NCBI RefSeq assembly: GCF_023008545.1
Contig: NZ_CP095397.1
Location: 868,001-932,000, forward strand
Length of the DNA stretch: 64,000 nucleotides
Source: Natribaculum luteum
GTDB lineage: Archaea; Halobacteriota; Halobacteria; Halobacteriales; Natrialbaceae
Reading direction: 5' to 3'
A program made the translations under genes and the position numbers. Shown here piece after piece: positions 6,089 through 45,673 of the stretch; position 1 is the first letter of the stretch; each line of letters starts with the position of its first letter. The notes beneath the pieces were generated by a model. It had not been told where the DNA came from. It saw only the letters and a list, made by a program, of their open reading frames with translations, and ran no database searches.

Positions 6089-7843
6089 ATGCGCCAGCTG
6101 GTCCACACACTCGGTGTCATCGTGCTCGTCGGCGGACTCGTAGCCGCCAGTGGAACAGTGAGTGGCGACCAGCCACCTCGACCTGGTACCGACGAGAGCG
6201 AACTTGACGAAAACGAGACCGCGACGCTCTGGTCGAAAGACGCAGATGAGTGTCTCAGCGATAAGGAGTACTACGACCACTATGGCGAGAACCGAACTGA
6301 TCTCCACGCGTTAGCCAACTGTACGGACATTTCGTTCGCCGAACCCCCAGAGACTGCTGAGATCTGGACTGAGTACGACTTCGAGTCGCTCGAGCCCGGC
6401 AGTAGCAACACGTCAGTGTATCCAGAACACGCCGAGACTGCAGACTCGCTCGCGATTGCCGACGCCCATGCGACGATCTTCGCCGTTCAGCCGTCGACAA
6501 TCGTCCACCTGAACGATGATGAAACGCCGCTGTACGTCGCTCCAGACGGCGAGCTTCGAGGACTCATCGACTACCGAGTGCGCGTTCCAGACGACGATCA
6601 CAGTGGCAACCAGACCGTTGAGTGGTCACTTCTCGATCACGGGATTGACGAGGTCCGACTCGAGCAAGACGGCGAGGTGCTCGCCGAACACGAGGGCCAG
6701 CACACGCCGACGATCGAGTACGCACTCGAGGGAAGCGGCACGTCGACGCTCACCCTCGAGGCGGACATCGAGGTCGACCTCGCACGATCGATTACGGAGC
6801 GAGTCGGGAATCGGACGAGCACGCAGAATGAGACTCGATCGACCACCTTGACAGTCTCGAGCGACCTCGAGGTCTACGTCTACGATCTGACGGCTTCGAT
6901 CTACGCTGCCGAGTATCCTGATGACGATGCTGGCGTCGCGATTTACCAGGCACAGCCGTGGCACGGGTACGTCCTGACGGAGGATGGTGACGCGACGGTT
7001 CGTGGCGTCTGGCGGTACTATACGGCTCGAGACACGGCCTGGGATTCGCTTATCCAGTCGTCGGCGACTGATCGAAAGGTGGTCAACTCGGATGCACTCC
7101 CAGTCTACGTCCGGGCGTATCCGTCAGAGACTGGCCCTCGTGCCGATCCAATTCTCGACGGTCCAGATATCGACGAAGTATGGGGACTCGAGAGTCCCCC
7201 GCCGAACGCAACACTTCACGAAAACGTCGAGGTCGATGTCGTCGACGACCCCTATACTCGTTCGTACGGCCTTGCGATCCGCTACGGCGAGGTCGATCGG
7301 GACCACCTCGAGGTTCAGGGCATCGTCCGTGACACGACTGCCGAACTCGTCGAACCGGATGGTGGAACTGAGCGTGAAATCAGAGAGAGCGACCTCTCGG
7401 TCGAGATTCTCGAGCAAAATGAATCCGCAGCAACGATCGAAATCGAACTTCGCGATGCCGAGACTGGCGATCCGATCATGCTCGAGCAGCCGTTCGAGGA
7501 CAACCCTCGGTCTGCGCCGATCGGTGTCGAGCCGCGTGATGGGTATGTCACGATCGCTGGCGAGCGCGTCGAGACGAATGCCTCTGGCATCGCGACGGTG
7601 ACTGTGACACAGCCCGGAATCCACACTGCAGAATACCATCCCGGCTCGTGGCGGACGCACGACCCCGCATACGTGGGCGAGACAGCGAGTGTCTCGTGGC
7701 ATCCGCTAACGACGGCGAGTGGCTGGTTTACGTTCTTCGTTGACGTCCTCTGGCTCTCGATTCCCTTCCTGGTAGCGCTATACGCGGGCCTAAAGCTCGG
7801 CTCGTTCCTGCACATCCCAGACGAACACAATCCACGACCATGA
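6089..7843 (+). CDS. large exported, C-terminally anchored protein of the secretion cluster
   Basis: I chose the ATG at 6089 and not an earlier in-frame one because it places a Sec-type signal (MRQLVHTLGVIVLVGGLVAA) at the N-terminus. About 530 acidic residues follow, rich in beta-type segments and NxT/NxS sequons, and a C-terminal hydrophobic helix (about the last 35 residues, WFTFFVDVLWLSIPFLVALY) leaves a short charged tail. It would sit on the outer face of the membrane anchored by its C-terminus. I recognise no enzyme motif. Its stop overlaps the next start (ATGA at 7840), so it is translated with the lipoprotein gene. Likely an external component of the transfer apparatus, possibly an adhesin or scaffold. 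Confidence 0.7.
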   Translation: MRQLVHTLGVIVLVGGLVAASGTVSGDQPPRPGTDESELDENETATLWSKDADECLSDKEYYDHYGENRTDLHALANCTDISFAEPPETAEIWTEYDFESLEPGSSNTSVYPEHAETADSLAIADAHATIFAVQPSTIVHLNDDETPLYVAPDGELRGLIDYRVRVPDDDHSGNQTVEWSLLDHGIDEVRLEQDGEVLAEHEGQHTPTIEYALEGSGTSTLTLEADIEVDLARSITERVGNRTSTQNETRSTTLTVSSDLEVYVYDLTASIYAAEYPDDDAGVAIYQAQPWHGYVLTEDGDATVRGVWRYYTARDTAWDSLIQSSATDRKVVNSDALPVYVRAYPSETGPRADPILDGPDIDEVWGLESPPPNATLHENVEVDVVDDPYTRSYGLAIRYGEVDRDHLEVQGIVRDTTAELVEPDGGTEREIRESDLSVEILEQNESAATIEIELRDAETGDPIMLEQPFEDNPRSAPIGVEPRDGYVTIAGERVETNASGIATVTVTQPGIHTAEYHPGSWRTHDPAYVGETASVSWHPLTTASGWFTFFVDVLWLSIPFLVALYAGLKLGSFLHIPDEHNPRP

Positions 7844-8679
7844 TTCGACACACCTCCCAACCCCGACGTACCGTCCTAAGTGGAATCGTGACCGGCGCAG
7901 TGGTCGCCGTGAGTGGCTGTTTGAGCGGTAGTGAAAACGATGACCCCAAATCCGACACAACCAATCCTGGTGGTGACGGTGTCTTTACGAACATCTTCGT
8001 CGACGGGACGGAGCTTGTCCTCGAGTTCACAGACGAGGCATCGATCGATCAGGTGAACGTGATCGATCCAGATGGCGAATTATTCGCCGAGCGGTCGATT
8101 TCGACAGGCGTCGGCCGTGAGACGATCGAGATCGGAACCGGGTACCAGCCCGGTGAATACGATGTCGTCGCACTCGAGGACGATACCGAGCAGACAACAC
8201 AGTCGATACTGATCGAACCAGACGTCCAGATCACAGATCTTCGACTCGGTCGAAATCATCCAGACGAGATGTTCGAGGGGGCAAGTGAGCGTGAAATCGA
8301 AACTGAAGCCATTCTTACTCTCGAGAATACAGGGAGTGGTCCAGACGAGGTTCGACGTCTGATTTTTAGCGGCGATGTACCGCGACCCACACCTGATGGC
8401 TTCGACGAGAGTGGAATCGCCGATACAGATAGTGATATCAATCGCTATGCTGACACAGTCGAACTTACTGCCGGTGATGAAACCACAATCTATAGCCAAC
8501 AGATGCCTTTCTACTCGGTTGATCCAAACATATCCTGTTCTTCGGACACTACTGAAGGAGAGTTTCAGGTTATACTTGAGACGGTTGTCCAAGAGGGGTC
8601 TCCTTCTGAAACTTATACAGTAACGTACACAGGTGAAAATCTGATCGAGTGTGATATCGACATTGAGGTGGCCTCATGA
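7840..8679 (+). CDS. Tat lipoprotein of the secretion cluster
   Basis: A 279-residue protein with a twin-arginine signal (QPRRTVLSG) and a lipobox whose cysteine is C27 (VAVSGC). The mature part is acidic, with beta-strand-rich segments resembling tandem immunoglobulin-like or CARDB-like folds (ILTLENTGSGPDEV is typical of such domains). It would be lipid-anchored outside the membrane. Overlaps of 4 nt with both neighbours show coordinated translation with the preceding exported protein and the following VirB6-like protein. Exact function unknown. Confidence 0.75.
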   Translation: MIRHTSQPRRTVLSGIVTGAVVAVSGCLSGSENDDPKSDTTNPGGDGVFTNIFVDGTELVLEFTDEASIDQVNVIDPDGELFAERSISTGVGRETIEIGTGYQPGEYDVVALEDDTEQTTQSILIEPDVQITDLRLGRNHPDEMFEGASEREIETEAILTLENTGSGPDEVRRLIFSGDVPRPTPDGFDESGIADTDSDINRYADTVELTAGDETTIYSQQMPFYSVDPNISCSSDTTEGEFQVILETVVQEGSPSETYTVTYTGENLIECDIDIEVAS

Positions 8680-9818
8680 GCTCACTCTCAGAATTCGGTC
8701 GCCGCTGGTTCGAGGATATTATTGAGACGATCATTGAGTGGTTTCAGAACGGTCTGGTTGATGGATACGATTCAATTACTGAGGAACTGTTTGGGACGCC
8801 TGTCCCAGAAACGGACGGGAATTTTGTCTTCGGAGCTCCGACGAATGAACCCTGGGTTGACCTACACGATTCACTCGTCACAGGTGAGATTATGCTTCTC
8901 TCGTTGTTGTTACTCGTCATTTTTGTGCAGGCAAGGCACACCGTTCGAATTTTCAATTTCAGTAGCAATTACGAGGCACGAAAAGCCCGAAGAACAGCCT
9001 GGACAGGTGCCTTCTTGATCGTGACTTGGTACTGGGTTGCGGTCTTAGTTCTCTACCTCGTGAATGGATTTTCGATAGCTCTTGTCCCAGGTATAGATGC
9101 CCTCGTTCGAGGGATGGTAGATTTTCTCACAGCTTCGATTTCAAATCCGGCGCTCGCGCTGCTAATGGCAGTAATTGGTGGGATTGCCATGTGGATTATA
9201 CAGGCGCTCTTTTTCATTCGGGAAATCCTGCTCTACGTCTACCTGTATGCGATGCCGATCGGGGTTGCAGTTGCGTTTGGCCACCTTCCAGTCGTTTCGC
9301 GGATTGCAAAGCAAATCTGTGTCAAGTTCGTTCCGCTAGCGATCATGCCGCTTCCGGTGGCTATCCTGTTCCGAGGATATGATCTGTTGTTTGGGTCGGG
9401 GACCGACTCAGCTCTCGCGCCAGATAGTTCGTTCTTGAGTTACCTCGTCGGCGTATCACTCCCAGTATTCGCACTCATCTTGATCTGGAAACTCTTCGCC
9501 TACGCGAGTCCGTTGACGGCGAAAGTCATCGGCGGTGCGACGAAAGGTGCAGTCACGATCGGTGCAGCGGTTGGGGCCGCGAAAGTGGCTGGTCCACTCG
9601 CAGCCACGACAGCTGCTCGCTGGGGACCGAAAGCGGCTGCGTGGCAAGTCGCTGGCCAGCGATTGGGTGGACAGCAGCACTCGTCGAACACCCAATCCAG
9701 CGGTGACCCCGGTGAGCAGCACGGAGGGACCGCTCACGATAACGTCGTGTCGGACGCCTACGGCCAGCGCGGCGTGCCACAGTACCGACGCACCGAGAAC
9801 GATCCTGGATACTACTGA
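8676..9818 (+). CDS. VirB6/TrbL-like polytopic membrane protein
   Basis: A 380-residue protein with an amphipathic N-terminus, then about six to seven hydrophobic helices (EIMLLSLLLLVIFVQ, GAFLIVTWYWVAVLVLYLV, ALALLMAVIGGIAMWIIQAL, EILLYVYLYAMPIGVAVAF, FVPLAIMPLPVAILF, YLVGVSLPVFALILIWKLF). A Gly/Ala-rich segment and a hydrophilic, Gln/Gly-rich tail follow. This layout (polytopic core plus disordered tail, next to VirB4) is that of VirB6/TrbL proteins forming the inner-membrane channel of type IV secretion systems. The start overlaps the previous stop by 4 nt. Confidence 0.7.
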   Translation: MSSLSEFGRRWFEDIIETIIEWFQNGLVDGYDSITEELFGTPVPETDGNFVFGAPTNEPWVDLHDSLVTGEIMLLSLLLLVIFVQARHTVRIFNFSSNYEARKARRTAWTGAFLIVTWYWVAVLVLYLVNGFSIALVPGIDALVRGMVDFLTASISNPALALLMAVIGGIAMWIIQALFFIREILLYVYLYAMPIGVAVAFGHLPVVSRIAKQICVKFVPLAIMPLPVAILFRGYDLLFGSGTDSALAPDSSFLSYLVGVSLPVFALILIWKLFAYASPLTAKVIGGATKGAVTIGAAVGAAKVAGPLAATTAARWGPKAAAWQVAGQRLGGQQHSSNTQSSGDPGEQHGGTAHDNVVSDAYGQRGVPQYRRTENDPGYY

Positions 9819-18954: not shown

Positions 18955-21900
18955 ATGAAAAGTAAATCAAATTTTTTTGCGATCAGTTTCGCGGTATTAC
19001 TGATCTTCTCGCTGGTTGCAATGCCAATCAATGCCGGGTATGCAGCTGGCGCACCTGGTTCACGAGATGTACCGGAGCATATCACCACTGGAATCTACCA
19101 ACAAGGGAATGGTCCACCAGACCAACAGGGAAATCCGTCAGGTCATCACAGTGACCAACCATTGAATGTTGACGAGATTGACATTCAGCCTCCCAAAATC
19201 GACTACGAGGCGAATTCGACGGTCGAACTTCACCAGCTCGCCATTGAGACGCTTGATGAAGTGGGCGTGAGTGGAGATGATACAGAGGAAATTGCTCGAG
19301 CGATAAACGCGTCGGCAGCGTCGTATCGTCAAGGAATATACGTCGAATCGAGGACGTCGTTCGATCATAAGATCGATGCACAAAAGTCGCTATCCACGCT
19401 GGTTACCGAACACGACGTAAACGATACAGCGATTAACACGACGAGCGAGATTATTCTCGATTCGGGCAATCTCACCGCTCGGCTGCTGACTCGGACTGCC
19501 GCTAACGCACTCGAGGCGAATGAAGATGCCTTCGACAACCCTGGTCAACGAAAAAGCACTGAACGAAAACTGGAGAACGCTATCGATGCGCTAGAGCGAG
19601 GCGATGAGGCGCTAACGGATACGCCGCCCCGACGCGGGCCACCGAGAGACGACCTCTCGTCAACGATTCAATCTCGAGAAAATGCACTGAACCAGTATCG
19701 AATCGCTGCTAAACATGCTATTCAGGCGCTTGAGCGGGTCGAAGGCGCAACTAATCCTGAACTGTTCGTGACTCGAGGACAGGCATACAGGGAAGACGGG
19801 GAGGTGCATGTTCCTATTTTCGTGGAACTCATCGATGCTCGGACCTTCCTGTATGAAGATGCCTCGGTAACGATTACGGCCGAAAACGGTTCTGATAGGA
19901 CAGCAGACCCAATTGACCTTCGAACCAGTTACGACAACGCGTCGGTCGCATCTGGGGGGACGTCCCTGGATCTCGGTGCCGACCCCGGAAACGTGACAGT
20001 GACAGTTGAAGCTACGTCAGTGTCTGACACCCACCGGAGTGTTGCCGAGACAATCGAAATATCGATCGATGAGAACGAGCTTCCGACAAAGCCACCGGAA
20101 CCCGGTGAATTCCGTGAAATTGAAGTCACGAACGACGAGTCGGGCGTGACGGTCGAGACAGGTGGTGAAGGCATCCAGGAGCGTGACATTCACATCACAA
20201 ATCACCAGGTGCCACCCGAACTCGATGACGTTCGTATTGGCCCAGTTGTCCGGATTCAGAATCGTGCGGAGATTAACGAAGCCACCGTTACGATTCCATT
20301 GTTGGACGACGTTCAAGAGGACGAGAATGTCTCGATATACACCTGGGATCCGGCCAGTGAACGGGGCTGGAAACGGGTCGACACACAGATCGATCCTGAA
20401 ACGGGAACAGCGACGGCAACGGTTGATTCATTCTCATTTTTCTCTGTATTCCGCGTTGATGAGTGGGAGGACTTTCGAACTGCCACAATCACGCTCGAGG
20501 ACCATCATTTCGCCGAGGAACCGAAGGAAGGAACAGGTATTGGAGCGGTCGATCTAATGCTTGTCATCGACGAGAGCGGGTCGATGAGCGGTTCGCGAAT
20601 TAAAAATGCCCGTAAGGCTAGCAAGCGATTCGTCGGCGCGCTTCTCGAGGACGACCGGGCGGGACTCGCCGGTTATGCCTCTGGATCAAGGCTGATCCAC
20701 GAGTTGACAGACGACACCGAGCAGCTCAATACTAGTATCGACAGCATCTCCGCTGGTGGAAGTACCAACACTGGTGCAGGGCTGAATACGGCGCTAACTG
20801 AACTAGAAGAAAACGGTAACGACGATCGGAAGCAGGTCATCATTCTTCTTTCGGATGGTCACACAAATATTGGTCCTGATCCTGTCGGCGTCGCAGAGAA
20901 GGCTGCCAAGCAGAATATCGAAATTAGCACCGTCGGTCTGGGAAGTGGTGCTGATGAAAACGAACTTCAAACGATCGCCAGTACGACAGGAGGAGACTAC
21001 TATCACGTCACAAATTCAAACGACCTTCCCGACACCTTCCAGCGCATCGCTGAGAATCAGAGCGAGGTTGCACTCACGGACTCTAATAACGACGGAATTC
21101 CGGATGCGGTCGCTGATGCCGATCCGCCAATGCCGACGTACGGACCGCTCGATTATGTATACGATAAGCGCGGGCTACGCGATGCCGATCCGGGTATTAA
21201 GATCGACCCCGTGCTGACCGATACGAGCGGTGATGGACTCAAAGACAATGAGACGATCGACGTCGAGTACCAGATATTCGAGGAGAACAACGAGACGAAG
21301 TTGTCTGCACGAGTGACCAGCGCCAAGGCACATCCCGCGTACTACGATACCGACGGCGATGGTGTCTCGGACCACGATGAAGTCGACATATGGGACTCAA
21401 ATCCGTACCTTCAGGATACGTCTGGGGACGGCCTGATCGATTCCGTTGACCCGGCACCTAACGAAGAGACACTTCCGCCTGAATTCGAATACCAGACGTG
21501 GGATATAAACGATCTCACGATGTTCCCGACGACGGTAAGAACGACAAGAGATGATCTCCTTGTTGTTGCTCGCCCGACCGGTGCAGCGGACGAAATTGAA
21601 GAGATCCGAATTCACCAGTATGTCGACACGTGGGTTCCACTCATCGATACTGGGTGGCGAAAGAAGACCTACAGGGGAGATTCACTCACCGATCTCGAAG
21701 ACGAAGATGGCGTCTACGTGAACGCCGCCTTCGGTGATGAGACCGGACAGATCACACCCGAACAGGTCAAGATCACCATCACTGACGATGATGGCAATCG
21801 GGCCGCTGTCAGTCACGACGTTGACCGTGGTGTCGCGGAGGCCACCGCTGGTGTGGCAGAGACGACCACTGCGGCAGCACCGTTGGCCGTCGGCGCATTA

Positions 21901-23277
21901 GCACGACCAGAGTACGCGGGCGCGACGACGGTGACGACCGTTAGCGCATCGACCGCCGCGGTCGCCCTCGGCGGTGCCGCCGTCGCTGGCACCGGATTCG
22001 CCCTCATGGCCGAGACATCGGGCTCCGCAGATGGCGAGTTCGCCAGAGAAGAATACATCCAGCCCGTTCCAGTGACCGAACCCCTCCAAACATGGACGGG
22101 CAGCGAACTCGAGATTCTCCTCCCCAACGGTGCCGAATACTCAGAGTACGATCCTTACGGTAATCGGGGACACGGATGGGAACAGATCCGGCGATTACCT
22201 GGTATCACTGACGTCAACGATGTCGATGAGACCTTCAATCTTCCCGGTGGAACCCAAACGGTTGGGGACTACGAGATTGTCATTGGAGATACCGGCGAGA
22301 ACGAAGTCATCCTATGGATCTACGAGGGTGTAGCCCTGTTCGCGGAGCAGACCGTCGAAGAGGAGGAAGTCTCCGAAGAGATCAGTGAAGAGGTCAACGA
22401 AGAACGTGAAGAAGAAGTCTCCGAAGAAGAAATTGAGGAAACAATTCAAGACGGGCCTGACGAGGTACTTGAGGATCCCCGATACAAATACGAGATCTAC
22501 AAGCTCGCTGAGAAGGGGATTCACTTCGTCATTCGGAAAGCTGGCGGAGAGATTGTCGATTACACAGTTGAACAGATCAGAGAAGACACTCCACGATGTG
22601 CGCTCGAAGAGGGTGACGTCGACATGTCAGTCCAGTCGACCAAACACGGTGAGTTCGTCGCTGCTCCAAGTGGATACAAGGCGTTCCACGGGATATATGA
22701 GGAGACGACCAACCCGGTAGAGACCGAGCTTCGATGTGTCGACAACCGGCAGGCAGTAGTCCAGACGTATGCGGACGATCCTGCGGACATCACCGACGGA
22801 AGCATCGGTGAGAACATCAGCGTTGAACTCATTAAGGAGCGTGGTCTTGATCTCGAATGGCCGGAAGAAGGATTTAAAGAAGGTGATGAAAGTGAAATTG
22901 GACCTGACATCATCGCCTATGACGATGGTGAATGGTTAATCATTGAGGCGAAAACCACTACTAGCACTAAGGCCGTTGGGAAGAATCTATTGGATACAGA
23001 TGCTTACGACGGTGATGCTCAACTTCACAATGACTGGATTAGAAATAGCCTCGAAAAATTGGAAGATGAGGACAGAATTGATCCGGAACTCGTAGACCAG
23101 ATAGATACCGCAATTGCCACCAACAACGTCACTAAGGAGATCGTGCTAGTGAGAGATGTTGAGGGAGCAAGTCACAGGACGTTACGGAAACCCCGAAACA
23201 ATGACACAGATATTAGTCTTGAAGATGTTGCAGGGGTTGATAGGGTAACTATCGTAGAATTAGCGGCAACTGAATAG
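18955..23277 (+). CDS. exported vWA protein with C-terminal PD-(D/E)XK-like toxin domain
   Basis: A 1440-residue protein. Residues 1-~32 form a Sec-type signal. A helical and beta-rich N-terminal half follows. The von Willebrand A domain is about 530-705 with the metal site DESGSMSGS, and GGSTNTGAGL and LLSDGHTNIG further on. About 708-832 carry calcium-binding repeats of the DxDGDGxxD type. A small-residue hydrophobic stretch is at about 972-1022, then a Glu-rich coiled segment (1132-1168). The C-terminal domain has a helix with E (GENISVELIKERGLDLEW), GPDIIAYDDGEWLIIEAKT (D near 1317, E and K near 1331-1333) and a following helix, the pattern of PD-(D/E)XK nucleases. Surface stalk plus a terminal nuclease is the architecture of polymorphic toxins. 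The next gene, 4 nt away, is a candidate immunity protein. Domain function is inference from motifs. Confidence 0.75.
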   Translation: MKSKSNFFAISFAVLLIFSLVAMPINAGYAAGAPGSRDVPEHITTGIYQQGNGPPDQQGNPSGHHSDQPLNVDEIDIQPPKIDYEANSTVELHQLAIETLDEVGVSGDDTEEIARAINASAASYRQGIYVESRTSFDHKIDAQKSLSTLVTEHDVNDTAINTTSEIILDSGNLTARLLTRTAANALEANEDAFDNPGQRKSTERKLENAIDALERGDEALTDTPPRRGPPRDDLSSTIQSRENALNQYRIAAKHAIQALERVEGATNPELFVTRGQAYREDGEVHVPIFVELIDARTFLYEDASVTITAENGSDRTADPIDLRTSYDNASVASGGTSLDLGADPGNVTVTVEATSVSDTHRSVAETIEISIDENELPTKPPEPGEFREIEVTNDESGVTVETGGEGIQERDIHITNHQVPPELDDVRIGPVVRIQNRAEINEATVTIPLLDDVQEDENVSIYTWDPASERGWKRVDTQIDPETGTATATVDSFSFFSVFRVDEWEDFRTATITLEDHHFAEEPKEGTGIGAVDLMLVIDESGSMSGSRIKNARKASKRFVGALLEDDRAGLAGYASGSRLIHELTDDTEQLNTSIDSISAGGSTNTGAGLNTALTELEENGNDDRKQVIILLSDGHTNIGPDPVGVAEKAAKQNIEISTVGLGSGADENELQTIASTTGGDYYHVTNSNDLPDTFQRIAENQSEVALTDSNNDGIPDAVADADPPMPTYGPLDYVYDKRGLRDADPGIKIDPVLTDTSGDGLKDNETIDVEYQIFEENNETKLSARVTSAKAHPAYYDTDGDGVSDHDEVDIWDSNPYLQDTSGDGLIDSVDPAPNEETLPPEFEYQTWDINDLTMFPTTVRTTRDDLLVVARPTGAADEIEEIRIHQYVDTWVPLIDTGWRKKTYRGDSLTDLEDEDGVYVNAAFGDETGQITPEQVKITITDDDGNRAAVSHDVDRGVAEATAGVAETTTAAAPLAVGALARPEYAGATTVTTVSASTAAVALGGAAVAGTGFALMAETSGSADGEFAREEYIQPVPVTEPLQTWTGSELEILLPNGAEYSEYDPYGNRGHGWEQIRRLPGITDVNDVDETFNLPGGTQTVGDYEIVIGDTGENEVILWIYEGVALFAEQTVEEEEVSEEISEEVNEEREEEVSEEEIEETIQDGPDEVLEDPRYKYEIYKLAEKGIHFVIRKAGGEIVDYTVEQIREDTPRCALEEGDVDMSVQSTKHGEFVAAPSGYKAFHGIYEETTNPVETELRCVDNRQAVVQTYADDPADITDGSIGENISVELIKERGLDLEWPEEGFKEGDESEIGPDIIAYDDGEWLIIEAKTTTSTKAVGKNLLDTDAYDGDAQLHNDWIRNSLEKLEDEDRIDPELVDQIDTAIATNNVTKEIVLVRDVEGASHRTLRKPRNNDTDISLEDVAGVDRVTIVELAATE

Positions 23278-23281
23278 AACA

Positions 23282-24043
23282 ATGGTCGAATTCACAGAGG
23301 AGCAACACGACCGTGCCATCAAACAGCTTGAGCGGTATCAATCTCGGGCTAAGAAACACGAACGATTGTATGAGGAAGAGAAGGTCAGAGAAGATTTCTC
23401 TACATTCTTTTCTGGGTTAGCAAGCAAACATAATAGCGCAGGTATATTGTCCATATATGTGGGTCGGATAGAGCAGGCACAAGACCACTTTCGAAGGGCA
23501 GCAGAATACTATCAACGAAGTGCTGAGGAAAGTGACGTGACAGTCCCAACGACGCTGACGCTTGCCCGTGGCCTGTATAACGCTTCTCTTGCTGGTGATC
23601 CGGATTCGACACAGGCGTTCGCCCACGAGATCACCGAAATAACTGAAACAGTAGATGTCAAGCCTGGCGATCCTGATGATGACCGGTATTATTTCTCGGG
23701 CTGTTTGGCGGACACTGTCTTGGACGATATTCGCGAGTGGTTGCTTGAAGGACTTGTTGCAGTCAATAAGGAAAAACCAGGAGTTTCCGCTTTGTATGGT
23801 AACGCAATCTTGACCTTCACTCGTGGGATTCGTGACGAGAATATTGAACAAATAAATGAAGGGGTTATTACCATGGTGGAATACCACGCTCGGTCTTTAA
23901 GTGAGGAGAACGTTGTTGAACGTGTTATGGCACCGGAAGCGACTGCTCTACTTATTATCTCTCACTGGAAAGGGTATGAGACTCAACTCAGCAGTAGTCT
24001 CATTCCCACCAAGTTAGTCCAAGCAAGCGCGTCAAAGGACTAG
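23282..24043 (+). CDS. Imm49-like helical protein, candidate immunity protein
   Basis: A 253-residue, apparently all-helical, cytoplasmic protein with no signal peptide. It starts 4 nt after the toxin-like gene and almost certainly shares its transcript. The pattern of paired helices and the C-terminal segment (EYHARSLSEENVVERVM, ATALLIISHWKGYE) recall Imm49 immunity proteins of polymorphic toxin systems; the N-terminal half also resembles TPR-type helical repeats (RIEQAQDHFRRAAEYYQRSA). The immunity role follows from position; the family match is from memory of the fold pattern and could be wrong. The gene is visibly less GC-rich than the secretion cluster. Confidence 0.6.
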   Translation: MVEFTEEQHDRAIKQLERYQSRAKKHERLYEEEKVREDFSTFFSGLASKHNSAGILSIYVGRIEQAQDHFRRAAEYYQRSAEESDVTVPTTLTLARGLYNASLAGDPDSTQAFAHEITEITETVDVKPGDPDDDRYYFSGCLADTVLDDIREWLLEGLVAVNKEKPGVSALYGNAILTFTRGIRDENIEQINEGVITMVEYHARSLSEENVVERVMAPEATALLIISHWKGYETQLSSSLIPTKLVQASASKD

Positions 24044-28969: not shown

Positions 28970-30089
28970 TGCCTTGTTGAACGCAAGACGGCATCGGGGT
29001 GGGGTTGCTGATCTACAATTTCACGACGTTAGAGACGGCTTTTCGACCTCAGAAGATGCAGTAGCTGTCAGTCACAGCGATTGCTGATGAGTCAAAACTA
29101 TGGTACCTTGCTCCGTTGTTCCGGTGACGACGGCGATGCCTCTCCCGGATACGTCCGGAAAAGGGGAGCAGGCGGCGAGCCCTAACTCGCCGCCTGCGTT
29201 AGGTTATGCACGATGCACTTGCGAGTTAGCTCCCGGAACTGGCCGTGCCAGCTCCGGGAGCGGAGCTTCTCGCCGTCGTCTTGCTTCAACTGCGAGAAGC
29301 CGGTTTCACTCATCCAGCGCTGGTTGTAGTCATCGTTCATTCGTTCGTTGTGGGCCTTCTGCAACGGTGTCTGCTCCCTGTGCTTGATCAACGGTCGCGT
29401 TGACTCGGAGCGACACTCCTCACGGAGGTCGCTCCACGAGTAGTTCGCGTCAGCAGACAACACACGCAGGTCTTCCGCGTTCCGGCGGAAGACCTGCATC
29501 CCGATGTGGCCGTCCCAGGCCTTCTGCGTCGTAAAATGAACGTCCTTGATCGCCAGTGAGTTCACGTCGATCAAGATCGTTGTCTTCATCGACTGGAATG
29601 AGTAGTTCGCTCGGTCGCGGTAGTGGTAGCTGGTTTGATCGCGCTGGAAGCCACTTGCATCAATCGCAGCTTCACCACTCCAGCCCGCCTGCTCCGCCGA
29701 AGCGCGGAGCAGGCGGCGCAGTTCACGCATCTGATACTCCTGCTCCCACCGACAGAACGAGCTGTAGTGCGGTGCCTCGTCGAGATCGAACACAGCAAGA
29801 ACACCTGGCATCTCGTTGAGGTAGTCTTCAGTCTCACGGAGGCTCTTCTCCAGTTCGACGCGGAACAGAATTAACGCGATCTGTGTCCACTTGGCGTACC
29901 CGTCCGCGCCATCCGGCGCGGCGGGTACGTCCGGATCGTCAACGTGCTGTTTGGCAAGGTCTCGACACATTCGCGCTAGTCGTCTGAGCGATGCCATATC
30001 GCCAGACGGCGTCCATTTCCCGGTTAATCTGACGGAACCTTCCTGTGAGAACGTCTGAAGTTGCCGTCAATCGGCGGCAAAACAAGGCA
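28970..30089 (-). mobile_element. ISH1-like insertion sequence (IS5 family), complete
   Basis: The element is 1120 bp, bounded by TGCCTTGTT at both ends in inverse orientation and flanked by an exact 8-bp target duplication ACACGCTG (28962-28969 and 30090-30097). Size, 8-bp duplication and a ~270-residue transposase match the ISH1 group. It has inserted into IS630 copy 2. This is the youngest layer of the nest, since both its gene and its ends are intact. Confidence 0.9.
29182..29997 (-). CDS. ISH1-like transposase (IS5 family)
   Basis: A 271-residue DDE transposase that appears intact. Catalytic blocks are EAAIDASGFQRD (first D), LRVLSADANYSWSD (second D) and NQRWMSETGFSQLKQ (E with the characteristic downstream lysine). 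A 9-bp hairpin (GGCGGCGAG/CTCGCCGCC) at about 29171-29194 spans the stop region. Inside the gene a 13-bp hairpin is at 29685-29697/29704-29716 and an 11-bp one near 29460. Potentially active, and could act in trans on related elements. Confidence 0.92.
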   Translation of the reverse strand: MASLRRLARMCRDLAKQHVDDPDVPAAPDGADGYAKWTQIALILFRVELEKSLRETEDYLNEMPGVLAVFDLDEAPHYSSFCRWEQEYQMRELRRLLRASAEQAGWSGEAAIDASGFQRDQTSYHYRDRANYSFQSMKTTILIDVNSLAIKDVHFTTQKAWDGHIGMQVFRRNAEDLRVLSADANYSWSDLREECRSESTRPLIKHREQTPLQKAHNERMNDDYNQRWMSETGFSQLKQDDGEKLRSRSWHGQFRELTRKCIVHNLTQAAS

Positions 30090-30473: not shown

Positions 30474-30998
30474 ATGGATGCAGTAGAGGCTGCAGCTGCG
30501 ATAGATCACGAAAACAGCGTCGCACACGACACTGACTTCCAGATCGGGCTGGATCCGAAGGAAGTGCTGCTAACCAATATGGTGACGTACATGGACGGTG
30601 TTTTCACACCGGAACTGGTCGAGGAACTGGGACGGGACGTCGTCAGTCGATCGGATCTCGATGAGTTGAAACGGGAAGTAAAAGACAGCCTCATTACCGA
30701 GGAAAATCTCCCATTCCTCGAGAGACATAAGCGTCATGCGCTTCGTAACGACTCGTCGGAACACACGCTGACGGAAACACAGATGGAGACGATAATCAGG
30801 GTCAACTCTCGAGTCCGGAAGATGGAAGAGGAAGATATCTTGGCCCAGCACGCGGATGTCGACTACCCCGGTCCTGCGATGTGTACGGTCGCGGCCGGGT
30901 GTGTCGCCGTAGTTGCCGCTGCTGTATACAACACGGTCGGAGCGGTTCACACAGCGGCAGCAGCCGTTGCCGTGGAGACGTACGTGGGGGTGACGTAA
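30474..30998 (+). CDS. candidate RiPP precursor peptide
   Basis: A 174-residue protein in two unlike parts. Residues 1-~130 are soluble, charged and helical (TPELVEELGRDVVSRSDLDE, EENLPFLERHKRHALR, TETQMETIIRVNSRVRK). After DVDYPGPAM the rest (about 137-174) is almost only Ala, Val, Gly, Thr and Tyr, with two cysteines, C137 and C143, spaced CX5C, and ending ETYVGVT. A long leader plus a small-residue Cys-containing C-terminus is how precursors of ribosomally made, modified peptides look, and sactipeptide cores are of similar composition. The stop is 2 nt before a radical SAM gene. No signal peptide. I recognise no known family, so the precursor role is inference from composition and the adjacent maturase. 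Confidence 0.6.
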   Translation: MDAVEAAAAIDHENSVAHDTDFQIGLDPKEVLLTNMVTYMDGVFTPELVEELGRDVVSRSDLDELKREVKDSLITEENLPFLERHKRHALRNDSSEHTLTETQMETIIRVNSRVRKMEEEDILAQHADVDYPGPAMCTVAAGCVAVVAAAVYNTVGAVHTAAAAVAVETYVGVT

Positions 30999-31000
30999 CG

Positions 31001-32062
31001 ATGCAGGTTTCGACCCTGTCGATGTTCCTCGACTACAAGTGCAATTTCGAGTGTGGCCACTGTAGCGTGGGAAGCAGTCCCGAAACGGAGTACGAACTGG
31101 ACGACCGGTATATTGACAAGGCACTGTCAGAGGCCGACTCTCTGGAAAGTCTTCAGCTGGTCGTATTTACGGGCGGGGAGGTGACGCTTCATTTCGACAA
31201 GTTGCTCGATGCTATTTCGCAGGCCAGCGAGTGCGGCTATCGGACACGGATCGTCACGAACGCGTGGTGGGCGCACGATATCGAGAGGGCCCGCGAGACG
31301 ATCGATCGGCTCGTCGATGCGGGTCTCGACGAAATCAACACGAGCTACGACGATTTCCACACCGATTATGCGCCCCCCGATAACATCGTGAACTTCGTCG
31401 AAGCGTCACTCGAAAGCGACATCGAGCAGACGTCGGTTGCGATGATTATCGGCGACACCAATCCAAGATACGATGCCGAGGCAATGGTCAAACTGCTCGA
31501 ACGACGGCTCGGAACGCATCCGGACGCCTATTCGGACGAATTGACCGTTCTCGAGGATACCGTCTCCCCGCTCGGGCGGGGGGCACAGATCGACGTCTCC
31601 GAACTCACTGCTCGAAACGACGTCGATTCCGGGTGTTCCGACGTTATCAGTACGATTTCGGTACATCCTGATGGAACGGTGAAGGCGTGTTGTGGCCACG
31701 CACAATGGTACGTTCCTGACCTGACGTTGGGAAGTCTGGACGAACAGTCTCTTCCGGATATCGTACAGCGGAGTCAGGAGAACCTCCTTTACTGGCTGGT
31801 ACACAACGTCGGTCCACAGCAGCTGCTGGAACGCATCGGTGTAGAGGGCGACTACAGTGGGATCTGTCACGCGTGTAACGATCTGCTCGGAGAACACCGG
31901 GAGAAGCTTCTGGAGTACATCCGAACCAACAAACAGCAACTCGTCCACGAGGATCTCTTCCTGAGCGAGACGATGCAAAGGGACGCCCAGTCGCTCGTCG
32001 ACCACGAACAGCAAGTCCTGGAGCGTCTCGATCGGATCTCCCAGGCGGCGGACGCCGATTGA
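31001..32062 (+). CDS. radical SAM peptide-modifying enzyme
   Basis: I chose the ATG at 31001, 2 nt after the precursor stop; an in-frame start further upstream would overlap the precursor. The 353-residue product has the radical SAM cluster motif CNFECGHC (C14, C18, C21, the CX3CX2C form) and FTGGEV as the SAM-binding GGE-type motif. The C-terminal part has additional cysteines at C212, C230, C231, C289 and C292, the layout of a SPASM/Twitch region holding auxiliary iron-sulfur clusters. Such enzymes install thioether, C-C or C-O links or epimerise residues in peptides. The downstream hydrolase overlaps by 4 nt. The modification made is not predictable from the sequence. Confidence 0.85.
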   Translation: MQVSTLSMFLDYKCNFECGHCSVGSSPETEYELDDRYIDKALSEADSLESLQLVVFTGGEVTLHFDKLLDAISQASECGYRTRIVTNAWWAHDIERARETIDRLVDAGLDEINTSYDDFHTDYAPPDNIVNFVEASLESDIEQTSVAMIIGDTNPRYDAEAMVKLLERRLGTHPDAYSDELTVLEDTVSPLGRGAQIDVSELTARNDVDSGCSDVISTISVHPDGTVKACCGHAQWYVPDLTLGSLDEQSLPDIVQRSQENLLYWLVHNVGPQQLLERIGVEGDYSGICHACNDLLGEHREKLLEYIRTNKQQLVHEDLFLSETMQRDAQSLVDHEQQVLERLDRISQAADAD

Positions 32063-33216
32063 TGATGCGCGAGCCGAGCCGGGAGTTTCTCGAAGCGCTA
32101 ACGAACGCGGAGTTCGAGCGAGCGGAACGAGTCTGTACGACGGAACTCGCAAACGCATACTCCGCCGGGGATCTCGGCGAAGACTGGCACACGTTCGAAA
32201 CCCAGCTCGGCCCGTTCGTCCGTATCGGTTCTTCGACACAGACGACCGTCAGGGGACACCAGGCAGACGTCGTTGAATTGCAGTTTTCGAGCGGATGGAG
32301 ACGTCTCAGAATCGTTCTCGATGGCGATCGCGTCGCCGGACTACAGTATCTCAACTGGGAGTCCCAGTCGGTCGCGGATCCGGAGTACGTCGACCACGAC
32401 GAGTTTTCCGAACGCGAGGTAACGATCGGTACGGCTGCGGACGGACTTCTCGGAACGCTTGCGATGCCGGACGAGATCGGAGGCGGGGCTGCCGTTCTCG
32501 TCCACGGCACGGGGCCACTGGACCGAGACGGAACTGTCGGTGAGAGTAAACCACTTCGAGACGTGGCTCGCGGACTCGCGTCAGCGGGTGTGCCGACGCT
32601 CCGGTATGATAAACGAACTACAGTCCGTTCCATCGCGCCCGCCGAACAGACGGTCGAACGGGTCGTCGTCGAGGACGCGAAAGCTGCGCTCAACGAACTC
32701 AATTCGATCGCCAACGTGCCCGTCACGCTTATTGGACACAGTCTCGGTGGAATGCTCGCCCCGTGGATCGCCTTGGAGAGTTCTGATGCCGTCGGGATGG
32801 TTACGCTCGCGGCGAATGCGCGGCCGTTACCCGCTCTCATCGAAGATCAGTGTCGGCGAGAGGACGGAACCGTTCCGGAACAAGTACGGACCGGTGTCGA
32901 ACGGATCACGGACAACGCCGTCGAACCTGGCGAAATCGTGTTAGGGTTCCCCGGCTCGTTCTGGCGAAGCCTCGACGGGTACGATCCAGTTTCGATCGCC
33001 TGCGACATGGACCTGCCGCTGACCGTGCTGCAGGGTGACTCGGACGAACACGTTTCACCAGAACTGGACTTTCAGCGCTGGAAGACCGGTGTTCCGAGGG
33101 CTACTTGCAAGTGTTATTCGGGGGTCGATCATCTGTTCAGGGCTGATTCCACGACAGTTACGGAACGAGCGATAGCGGACGTGGGTAAAGCGGTACGGCG
33201 CACTGGCGATGGATAA
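32059..33216 (+). CDS. alpha/beta hydrolase with DUF3887-like N-terminus
   Basis: A 385-residue protein whose start overlaps the radical SAM stop (ATGATG at 32059). Residues ~1-100 resemble a DUF3887 domain (FLEALTNAEFERA, WRRLRIVLDGDRVAGLQ). From about 115 an alpha/beta hydrolase follows, with an oxyanion-type VHGTGPLDRDG, nucleophile S228 in IGHSLGGM, an acid near VLQGDSDEHV and a late histidine in YSGVDHLF. The fold includes prolyl-oligopeptidase-type peptidases, so it could remove the leader or trim the modified peptide. It has no signal peptide, so it acts inside the cell. Substrate is inferred only from the operon. Confidence 0.8.
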   Translation: MMMREPSREFLEALTNAEFERAERVCTTELANAYSAGDLGEDWHTFETQLGPFVRIGSSTQTTVRGHQADVVELQFSSGWRRLRIVLDGDRVAGLQYLNWESQSVADPEYVDHDEFSEREVTIGTAADGLLGTLAMPDEIGGGAAVLVHGTGPLDRDGTVGESKPLRDVARGLASAGVPTLRYDKRTTVRSIAPAEQTVERVVVEDAKAALNELNSIANVPVTLIGHSLGGMLAPWIALESSDAVGMVTLAANARPLPALIEDQCRREDGTVPEQVRTGVERITDNAVEPGEIVLGFPGSFWRSLDGYDPVSIACDMDLPLTVLQGDSDEHVSPELDFQRWKTGVPRATCKCYSGVDHLFRADSTTVTERAIADVGKAVRRTGDG

Positions 33217-33669: not shown

Positions 33670-33975
33670 CTATCGCGTATAGCGGTTCGATCCGACGATC
33701 ATCACGGCCATAGCGACGATAATGAACACACCGAATGCGTGCCAGAGGAAATCCCCACCTCGCTCCAGATAATCCAAGACACCGACGACCGCGGTGACGG
33801 CTCCGACGGCGATTATGAGTCCGCCGATAAACCTCGCCATCCCTGTTTCGTCGACGACCTCCTCCGGATCGTAGCCGGCGATGAGGTGAACCATCCCGCG
33901 ATACCGGATCAGATATCCGAGCCCAGCGGTGAAAAGCCCGCTCGAAAGGACGATCGCAAGCCGTAGTAGTGACAT
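33670..33975 (-). CDS. DUF3784-type small membrane protein
   Basis: A 101-residue protein with three transmembrane helices (RLAIVLSSGLFTAGLGYLIRY; FIGGLIIAVGAVTAVVGVLDY; FGVFIIVAMAVMIVG). The segment YLIRYRGMVHLIAGYDP resembles the conserved start of DUF3784 proteins. It converges on the Tat micro-peptide gene with only 6 nt between stops. A role in immunity or export of the peptide is possible but unproven. Confidence 0.65.
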   Translation of the reverse strand: MSLLRLAIVLSSGLFTAGLGYLIRYRGMVHLIAGYDPEEVVDETGMARFIGGLIIAVGAVTAVVGVLDYLERGGDFLWHAFGVFIIVAMAVMIVGSNRYTR

Positions 33976-33987
33976 GAGTTGGAGTTT

Positions 33988-35019
33988 CTACTGAGGGATT
34001 CTATTTTCATCAAAAAAATCTTTTCTATTACTGGTGAGGGTGTCATAGCTGTACTTCCGAGGTTTAACGCCACAGTTAACGGTTAGCGACCGGGTTCTAC
34101 AGGATGAGATGATTGATAAAAAGAACGGCGGAATCAGTAGTGACTGGGAGTGGAACTCTAAGAACAACTCAGAGGGATGAGCAGCGTGCTTCCGATTGGG
34201 ATGCGCGTCTGGATGGATAAGGTCGGTGTCCTCAGAAACGGTCCGGAACTCCGTCAGCGACACTTCCAAGACATATAGCTCAGAAATCGCCCGGAGTTTC
34301 CGTCTGAAACTCCGGGCTTCGCCGAAGAATCTGTCAGCAACGACACAGCCGTGATCAATCTCGGTTGAGACTGCCTGTTCGACGAGTTCCAGGGCTAGCT
34401 CAGGCTTCGACTGGTGTTTGATGTCGGCGGAGACAGCTGTGTTTTTCCGCCGCTGAGCGCAGCGTTCTCGTTCTTGCTGGCTCTCGTAGTCTGCATCGTC
34501 GTCGCCAGTCCACTTTTGGGACAGGAACAATCGCATCCCCAGTGGCCAGGTAAGTTGGTCAGCATTCTGCCGCTCGCCAGGTCTGGCGAGCGTGCAGTTG
34601 ACCGTCACCTGGCAGTTGTCAAGTTTTCCAGTCACACCACACCACTGACGAGCGACGCCAACACTGTCCTGTCCCGTCTTCGGGATGCCCATACCATCGA
34701 CGATCAGTGCAGCTTCGTGCCCTTGGATCGCTTTGGGAACGCGTTCCCGAAGCTCAGCCTCGACGTGTTCGTGTTCCCATGGACTCTCACGGACAAACCG
34801 TTCGAGCCGTTCCCGATCGGTGTGCATTTTCTTGGCGATGTCGGTGATGGTGTTGGGACTTCCGGGGCACAGCAGGCCCCGGAAGTACCGGCCTGCGTTC
34901 AGCCATGTCCGTTCGTTTTTCGGCGATGTCGATCCATCTACCCGAGTCGTGAATGCTGAACGGTAGCCACTGAGAAACTGTAGTCCTTCGGCCTGACTGC
35001 GTGTCACGTTGTTCGTCAT
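33988..35019 (-). pseudogene. IS701-family transposase, C-terminally truncated
   Basis: The frame reads as an IS701 transposase for about 270 residues: LIVDGMGIPKTGQDSVGVAR (first D), LDNCQVTVNCTLAR and VVADRFFGEARSFRRKLR (second D). After VLEVSLTEFRTVSEDTDLIH the sequence stops resembling the family, and the open frame simply runs through the left terminal repeat and out to 33988. The catalytic glutamate region is missing, as in an internally deleted element. Several 9-11 bp hairpins remain in the coding part (for example 34858-34868/34876-34886). Confidence 0.75.
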
Positions 35020-43772: not shown

Positions 43773-45617
43773 TTACGCGTCTTGAGTCTCCTCGGGGCCA
43801 AATTTATTCAACAGGTCTTCAATGATGAGTTCTTCGCGCTTCTCGATGAATTCGGGGAAGTCCTCTAAGCGGTGGAGGTCCTCGTCCTGGGGGATGTGAT
43901 GCTTCTCGAAGTAAGAGTCATCCTGGGATTCCAGCCAGTCAAGGAAGGAATGGCCACTCTTTGAGCGGTTTTCGTTCTCGTTGAGAAGCTGGAGGTTGCC
44001 GATTCGGTCTTTGAGTTCCACATATCGGTCTGCCTCAACAGGGTCTAGTCCGTAGTCTTGAACCAGCGTTTCCGTATCGAACTGGTCCTGTGGGAAGATG
44101 TGGTCGACATCATGGCGTGTGTTACTCCGGGCTGGTCCGGGATGGTAAAGCAGCGAGAGGAACGAGAAGGTCTTTCGACTCCCGTATTCGAGGCTGTCGA
44201 GTTGCAGTTCCAGTAGGTCGCGGTCGAATCTGGAGACACGCCCATCGCTTCGTAGTTCACGGTGAATCTCGTCGCCGGGGAACGTCATAGCAGGCGCAGT
44301 CTGCATTAGTGACCGCGCTCGTTCGATGGCTCCTCGACCGACAGAGAACGTGCCGTTGAGAATTGACGTACAGAGCCATTGGTGAATCTCTTCTCTAGCC
44401 GAAATCTCCTCGTGACCGCTACTCCATTCGAGGTTCGGATTGTCGTTGATATAGAAGAAATATGCAACCGGAACGAGGGCATTCCGACTCGTGAGACTGC
44501 GAGAGTCAAGACCGAAGTCAACAATGAGGTCAACGGCGTTTCGTACTGCCTGCTGCATTTTTCCGTTGTCTGTCCAAGTCTGCTTCATCCTCTGGAGGTT
44601 CGACTGGTTGAAGTGACGGACTGATTCAGAGGTCGGCAGGTCGGAGCACATCAGGAGATTGCGAAGCGCGAAGTCGATATCGAAGCTAAACCCAGCGTCC
44701 TGGCGTCGACGATTCAGGTCGTCGATGAACTCTGTAATCTCCTCTCGGGCATTGATGGCGTCCGCACCGTCTCCATTCGCCCACTGAGCAGTTGCGATGG
44801 AGAGCAGGACTTCGGAGGTACTGAGTTGGGTTCCGCCGCGATTTGTCCGGATGAACATATCCAGAACCTTCCCCAAGTCGTCCTCTTCTTTCTCGTCGTA
44901 GTTGATGAGACTGCGTTCGTGAACAGCGCGATAGAGGGCAGTGAGATTCTTGTTGATGAACTTCCACTGCGAGGGATGGTCGATATCCTGCTCAGAGAGT
45001 TCGGCATCAATCTCTTCGGTGATATCGTGAATGCCATCGTATTCGTTGAGTTCGAGGATGTCCTTAGCCCGATACCAATATTCGTTCTCGGACATCTCGG
45101 GGTCAGTTTTGAACTCGAACTCATACCGCATCTTGAGGTCGTCGTCGCTAACCTCGTTGGGGTCAGAGAGAACGTTGAGATAGAGTTGCTTTCGGTCCCA
45201 TGCGTTCGGATTGGTCCGATGGCGGTGTTTTTGCTTGGTCGTCAGCGTTCCCTGTAATCCAATGTAGAGCGCGGTGAGTCGCTGTTGGCCGTCGAGGACT
45301 AACTGAACCCCGTTGGGGACGTCCTCGTAGTCTTCGACCTCAGGGTTACGGTGGTGGACGTTTCCTAAGCTCTCCGGGTGGACGGGGTCAGTGACGTAGT
45401 GCTGAACGAACTTGTATTTGATTTGCTCTTGAGCGAGGTCGCCCCGAACCCGCCAAAAGAGGAGGGAACCGATTGGATAGTCTCGGAGGATGGAGTCGAA
45501 GAGTTGGATGATTTGTTCTTCGGTCCAGACGAATTCCCGTTGGATAGCAGGGACGAAGGTCGCCGTATTGAGTTCCTGAATGGCATTGGCGATGGTTTTA
45601 GATTGAAAACTCATTGA
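43773..45617 (-). CDS. DUF262/DUF1524 (GmrSD-like) HNH nuclease protein
   Basis: I chose the ATG at 45617 because DUF262 proteins begin close to the FVPAIQREFVWTEEQI segment. 614 residues. The N-terminal DUF262 domain has the ParB-like nucleotide-binding box VLDGQQRLTALYIG (D108-R112). The C-terminal DUF1524 domain has an HNH-type HDVDHIFPQDQF at about residue 500 and a later NLQLLNENENRSKSGHSF. GmrSD-type proteins use NTP hydrolysis to control cleavage of modified DNA, and related DUF262 nucleases act in phage defence. Last gene of a three-gene minus-strand run with 45674-46384 and 46391-47497. Confidence 0.88.
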   Translation of the reverse strand, partial: SMSFQSKTIANAIQELNTATFVPAIQREFVWTEEQIIQLFDSILRDYPIGSLLFWRVRGDLAQEQIKYKFVQHYVTDPVHPESLGNVHHRNPEVEDYEDVPNGVQLVLDGQQRLTALYIGLQGTLTTKQKHRHRTNPNAWDRKQLYLNVLSDPNEVSDDDLKMRYEFEFKTDPEMSENEYWYRAKDILELNEYDGIHDITEEIDAELSEQDIDHPSQWKFINKNLTALYRAVHERSLINYDEKEEDDLGKVLDMFIRTNRGGTQLSTSEVLLSIATAQWANGDGADAINAREEITEFIDDLNRRRQDAGFSFDIDFALRNLLMCSDLPTSESVRHFNQSNLQRMKQTWTDNGKMQQAVRNAVDLIVDFGLDSRSLTSRNALVPVAYFFYINDNPNLEWSSGHEEISAREEIHQWLCTSILNGTFSVGRGAIERARSLMQTAPAMTFPGDEIHRELRSDGRVSRFDRDLLELQLDSLEYGSRKTFSFLSLLYHPGPARSNTRHDVDHIFPQDQFDTETLVQDYGLDPVEADRYVELKDRIGNLQLLNENENRSKSGHSFLDWLESQDDSYFEKHHIPQDEDLHRLEDFPEFIEKREELIIEDLLNKFGPEETQDA

Positions 45618-45673
45618 CCCGATACTGGCGTGACCCAGCACTAAAATACTCCCGTTGGTGACTGTTGATTACG

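Follow-up and report, generated by a model that had tools for sequence, protein, structure and literature searches.

We propose with moderate confidence that three coupled genes of Natribaculum luteum form a haloarchaeal epipeptide-type RiPP cluster, and that its product would be a D-residue-containing, membrane-active antagonistic peptide. The genes lie in a stretch of 64,000 nucleotides, here called the window. A first-pass annotation had read them as a RiPP-type precursor, a radical SAM maturase and a hydrolase able to act as a protease. The open reading frames confirmed the positions and tight coupling of all three, including the 2-nt gap between the end of the precursor gene at 30998 and the start of the enzyme gene at 31001 (Table 1). 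The reported 4-nt overlap between the enzyme and hydrolase genes holds if a TTG at 32059 is taken as the hydrolase start; with the in-frame ATG at 32062, which is the more likely start, the overlap is 1 nt (TGATG).

Table 1. Coordinates of the cluster genes and flanking features in the window
Feature	Position	Strand	Basis or remark
Precursor gene, 174 aa, acidic helical leader and hydrophobic core PAMCTVAAGCVAVVAAAVYNTVGAVHTAAAAVAVETYVGVT	30474..30998	+	No Pfam or NCBIfam family above cut-off
Putative core peptide, residues 134-174	30873..30995	+	Cys137 (30882-30884), Cys143 (30900-30902)
EpeE/YydG-like radical SAM enzyme, 353 aa, predicted peptide epimerase	31001..32062	+	Pfam, TIGR04078, PDB, Foldseek, motif alignment
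DUF3887-alpha/beta hydrolase fusion, EstD-like, GHSLG nucleophile elbow	32062..33216	+	TTG start at 32059 also possible
DUF3784 small membrane protein, candidate immunity protein	33670..33975	-	Pfam 7.4e-12
Transposase-like ORF flanking the cluster, likely insertion sequence	29182..29997	-	ORF reading alone, family by eye
Second transposase-like flanking ORF, likely insertion sequence	33988..35019	-	ORF reading alone, family by eye

The same IS-rich region holds a GmrSD-type restriction endonuclease gene (43773-45641). At 18955-24043 there is a gene for a 1440-aa VWA-domain protein with a C-terminus that looks nuclease-like by eye (Pfam gave no match), directly followed by a 253-aa ORF; the two are a possible toxin/immunity pair.

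The radical SAM enzyme and its precursor

Pfam recognised a Radical_SAM domain (8.5e-14) and a SPASM domain (3.5e-6) in the enzyme. The top NCBIfam model was TIGR04078, the YydG family radical SAM peptide epimerase (2.6e-32), which leads the other NCBIfam models by 22 orders of magnitude (runner-up 1.8e-10) and matches all eight haloarchaeal enzymes found in this study. At 112.5 bits the window enzyme is far below the 300-bit equivalog cut-off of this model and so is not recognised as an EpeE orthologue; judged by its sequence it is a distant EpeE relative, with orthology not established. EpeE was also its sole strong relative in the PDB (5.5e-19 by sequence and 2.6e-25 by profile). Foldseek searches with an AlphaFold model of the enzyme, built from an eight-sequence alignment (pLDDT 68), returned EpeE chains as the best nine matches (8ai1-8ai6, E 2.7e-13 to 4.2e-12, TM ~0.6) with SuiB ranked next at 6e-8, and the predicted fold is in this sense EpeE-like.

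The CX3CX2C motif (C14/C18/C21) and the extra cysteines noted in the first-pass annotation were both found. Five C-terminal cysteines, C212, C230, C231, C289 and C292 (the last two as C289xxC292), are invariant in 8/8 haloarchaeal enzymes and form a C..CC..CxxC pattern. C231 aligns with the second cysteine of the EpeE CC pair. This is Cys223, which is replaced in the C223A structure 8ai3 and has been proposed to donate the hydrogen in EpeE (PMC8326336). The conserved C-terminal cysteines are enough for one auxiliary cluster and an EpeE-type catalytic cysteine only. We dropped D214 as a candidate equivalent of EpeE D210; the neighbouring cysteine was placed differently in two alignments.

The 174-aa protein has the charged leader, the Ala/Val-rich tail and the two cysteines that had been described for it. 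There are 31 D/E and 14 K/R within residues 1-130, and the 41 residues of the tail (134-174) include 13 Ala and 11 Val, with a Kyte-Doolittle mean of up to 1.97. From this we infer a leader of approximately residues 1-133 and a core of approximately 134-174. None of the eight precursors matched a Pfam or NCBIfam family above cut-off or a known leader, and a profile search of the PDB with the precursors gave no match. The AlphaFold model of the precursor is poor (pLDDT 47.5) with a low-confidence helix at 135-172.

Conservation across the eight-precursor set extends to the core and to motifs of the leader (AV..., DH..S). The two core cysteines are six apart in 6/8 relatives; at the locus L029 the pair is a different one, and the core of L032, the enzyme of which is 51% identical, has no cysteine. 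It had been expected that the leader would be conserved and the core variable. Comparison of the window with the locus L030 showed the opposite, with 82% identity in the core and 45% in the leader at equal dS (~1.8). The core has a dN of 0.14 and a dS of 1.86, and the leader a dN of 0.46 and a dS of 1.81; the precursor is under purifying selection between these two loci. Because dN is lower in the core than in the leader at equal dS, the mature part of the precursor seems to be under the stronger constraint. This selection, together with a precursor recognisable beside the same enzyme in seven other loci, means that the precursor ORF is not a chance ORF.

Alternation of beta-branched residues was considered as a sign of an L/D-helix and set aside. 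It falls short of significance in the core of the window precursor (p 0.13) and is weak in L030 and L031; significance was reached only in a distant precursor from Eleftheria (p 0.002 against shuffled sequences).

Relatives, neighbours and wider EpeE-like systems

Counting the window, the precursor-enzyme pair was found at eight loci in seven haloarchaeal genomes. The others are Halorussus halobius (L003 and L029), the MAG QS_1_68_17 (L004), the genomes G369 (L017), G408 (L030) and G488 (L032), and a plasmid of Halocatena salina (L031 and L033, which are one locus; G651). The precursor gene is upstream of the enzyme gene in six of these seven further loci and downstream in L029. This last locus (7685-9352) is the second enzyme-precursor pair of Halorussus halobius, with reversed gene order and a different, shorter core CTFTVCTVHATVVVEVQVSISGV. 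Overall, the enzyme occurs in 6/392 genomes of the order. A precursor profile found 4/342 genomes of the class, each with the enzyme adjoining, and no precursor lacking a neighbouring enzyme was seen in this 342-genome sample. The proposed RiPP-type precursor-maturase pair is therefore supported, and within this sample the precursor is not a widespread protein without a radical SAM neighbour. A second precursor-like match in G369, on the other strand amid osmolyte-type ABC transporter genes, was judged to be due to chance.

The eight haloarchaeal enzymes group together in the enzyme tree (97/93), and those of the window, L030 and L031 are close to one another despite their origin in three different families. 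The enzyme is absent from G520, a congener of the window's organism. This closeness across families, the enzyme-less congener and the transposase-like ORFs on both flanks suggest that the cluster has spread horizontally and is probably mobile. Viral contigs contained no relative of the enzyme.

The clusters fall into two ARRANGEMENTS according to their neighbours, type I (window, L030 and L031) and type II (L003, L004 and L017). In type I a DUF3784 membrane protein is encoded near the pair. Its gene is divergent and immediately upstream at L030 and L031, whereas in the window it lies past the hydrolase gene. A further gene shared by the window and L030, in the same gene order, is that of the DUF3887-alpha/beta hydrolase. 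Type II clusters encode the ATPase and permease of an ABC transporter, a Yip1-family membrane protein and a DUF3887 protein that lacks the hydrolase; in L017 an SdpI-family protein (2.1e-14) is encoded beside the ABC genes. L029 and L032 have no homologue of the type I or type II accessory genes within the fetched stretch. The Halocatena cluster adjoins a gene (L031:9068-12340) for a STAND-NTPase/TPR protein whose repeats are almost identical; this may be a defence gene.

The DUF3784 family was found in 16/79 sampled genomes of the order, mostly as a single copy. Since the family is this sparse, the three adjacencies would not be expected by chance, though they may reflect common descent. By its position, DUF3784 is a candidate immunity protein. 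A relationship of DUF3784 to SdpI received no support (profile-profile probability 1.1%). The hydrolase matched the esterase model EstD of NCBIfam at 1e-67, below its cut-off, and carries a DUF3887 domain; with this assignment and no homologue in 6/8 loci, the earlier suggestion that it could act as a protease was not supported. No protease or exporter for the window cluster was identified among the cluster genes and no ABC transporter is beside it. The window's genome has no SdpI, and a search of it (run with no positive control) found no homologue of the type II permease.

EpeE-like enzymes were also found at L054:2371-5590 (a plasmid of Klebsiella sp. PL-2018), L046:2599-6074 (Thermus aquaticus pTA14) and L051:2406-6167 (a Collinsella plasmid). 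Their neighbours are SdpI/DUF1648 membrane proteins, a methyltransferase and precursors of 240-300 aa. The cores of these precursors have alternating Asn/Ala/Val and are polytheonamide-like, and the proteusin epimerases are reported to be unrelated to EpeE. An Eleftheria terrae plasmid (L048:5047-6153) encodes a 368-aa candidate precursor with the strongly alternating Val/Ile core referred to above. Close to it are genes for an EpeE-like enzyme and for a hydrolase of the beta-lactamase fold, and the Thermus cluster includes a hydrolase similar to the latter. A distant archaeal EpeE-like enzyme is encoded at L018:7173-8969 (G337), preceded by a 232-aa protein with a start that looks Nif11/NHLP-like by eye, and this is possibly another archaeal RiPP.

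A tentative extension, which we hold to be rather less likely than likely, is that there is an archaeal class of D-residue ribosomal toxins made by EpeE-type epimerases from long-leader precursors, that DUF3784 is a new family of immunity proteins for it, and that this class is one branch of a cross-phylum EpeE-like set including the Thermus, Klebsiella and Collinsella systems. In the literature searched, EpeE-type backbone epimerisation is described only from Firmicutes. A search of open-licence PubMed Central papers found no archaeal epipeptide; the one review that came up for epipeptides and archaea deals with lanthipeptide engineering. The classes named in a recent archaeal RiPP survey are YcaO, ranthi-/sacti-, lanthi- and lasso-peptides; it has no epimerised class and no occurrence of 'epimer' (PMC12144867). 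The earlier statement that no named archaeal family matches the cluster is supported. With a compact archaeal cluster that has a defined precursor, an enzyme and a candidate immunity protein, it becomes testable whether archaea produce D-residue ribosomal peptides, whether one archaeon uses them against another, and whether DUF3784 is an immunity family.

Proposed pathway and alternatives

Because of the kinship of the enzyme and its catalytic motif, C-alpha inversion in the core is the most likely modification. Epimerisation leaves no sequence signature. In the proposed pathway the 174-aa protein would be the precursor, and the EpeE-like enzyme would use the 5'-deoxyadenosyl radical to abstract hydrogen at C-alpha of selected residues in the Ala/Val-rich core. 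C231 would then give a hydrogen back on the opposite face to yield D-residues. Valine is the likeliest residue to be epimerised, by analogy with Val36 and Ile44 of EpeE, which inverts one Val and one Ile (PMC8326336). The leader would subsequently be cut off by a protease, and the two core cysteines may pair as a disulfide. The resulting hydrophobic peptide of ~40 residues would act on the membranes of competitor cells, with the producer putatively guarded by DUF3784 in the window and by the ABC transporter or SdpI in other versions. In the EPE system the peptide permeabilises membranes and dissipates the membrane potential (PMC7026026) and EpeAB gives autoimmunity (PMC7026026, PMC12871923). 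A mass search for products lighter by 2 Da, as first suggested, is one that would miss the likely product because epimerisation is mass-silent.

The earlier comparison with sactipeptides would have the enzyme tie Cys137 and Cys143 to neighbouring residues in thioethers (-2 Da each), as in a sactipeptide- or ranthipeptide-type RiPP. The six-residue spacing of the cysteines in most cores, the SPASM-type enzyme, weak NCBIfam matches to the thioether maturases StsB (3.9e-5) and PapB (2.1e-4) and the ranthi- and sactipeptide clusters reported from archaeal genomes (PMC12144867) all agree with this. By contrast, the EpeE model is ahead of the thioether-maturase models by >25 orders of magnitude, profile, sequence and predicted fold all place the enzyme nearest to EpeE, it does not conform to a thioether-type maturase, and its conserved C-terminal cysteines leave none beyond those of one auxiliary cluster and the catalytic position. 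Obligatory thioethers are also unlikely because the core of L032 lacks cysteine, and we regard this reading as improbable. A departure of another kind is that the 174-aa protein is held in the membrane by a tail anchor and that the enzyme acts on some other substrate. The C-terminal 40 residues could make one transmembrane helix, consistent with the low-confidence helix in the AlphaFold model, but precursor and enzyme adjoin in 8/8 loci, whichever of the two genes comes first, the tail is better conserved than the soluble part, and EpeE-type enzymes modify peptides. This makes a protein that is no RiPP very improbable.

Two other possibilities concern what the peptide does. It could be an intraspecies signal or membrane regulator rather than a weapon, with D-residues serving only for protection from proteases. 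Strong conservation of the core between genera and the STAND-NTPase/TPR gene next to the Halocatena copy also suit a signal; the hydrophobic 41-residue core, the ABC transporter and SdpI neighbours and the patchy distribution fit antagonism better, and a signalling role is in our judgement unlikely. It is less credible by far that the precursor is a haloarchaeal member of the SdpC/SDP toxin family to which a radical SAM enzyme was added. In favour of this, SDP has 42 aa and a single disulfide (PMC4887032), there is the SdpI gene of L017, and the model TIGR04032 touches 5/8 precursors (best E 0.011). These matches reach at best 15.5 bits against a cut-off of 99.2 bits and are compositional, because cores give the same score when shuffled or reversed and higher-scoring matches occur at unrelated haloarchaeal loci (6.5e-4). 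With no SdpI in the window's genome as well, membership of the SDP family was rejected.

Comparison with known systems

The cluster resembles the EPE system of Bacillus subtilis (epeXEPAB, formerly yydFGHIJ) in its EpeE-type enzyme with the CC catalytic motif, in a precursor that directly adjoins the enzyme and, in some haloarchaeal versions, in an ABC transporter. It differs in that the haloarchaeal precursors are 157-179 aa compared to ~50 aa and fall outside the short YydF family, and in that DUF3784, DUF3887 and hydrolase genes are present instead. The cluster is also archaeal, whereas epipeptides are described from Firmicutes, as worded in the title of Popp 2021 (cited in PMC8326336). The precursor, ABC permease and hydrolase matched none of the EpeX, EpeB and EpeP families. 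Among the family-tested cluster genes there is no EpeP/YydH-type membrane metalloprotease, a type that NF058609 does detect in the Macrococcus enzyme. The ABC permease of the relatives is not alignable to YydJ by BLASTP and gave no match to NF058605, so no EpeAB/YydIJ transporter was seen. Since precursor family, protease, transporter and model cut-off all fail, we consider that the cluster works like an epipeptide system and do not class it as a member.

The SDP system (sdpABC-sdpIR) is similar in its hydrophobic peptide of ~40 residues with two cysteines and in the SdpI-family gene of one haloarchaeal locus, and differs in having no radical SAM enzyme. Proteusin epimerases (PoyD, OspD and PlpD) share radical SAM epimerisation of long-leader ribosomal precursors with hydrophobic cores. 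They have one cluster and a C-terminal RRE and show no significant homology to EpeE (PMC8326336), and a nitrile-hydratase-like or Nif11-like leader was found by Pfam and NCBIfam in none of the eight precursors. Archaeal lanthipeptides and halocins are likewise haloarchaeal ribosomal antagonistic peptides, but they are made with other enzymes from other precursors.
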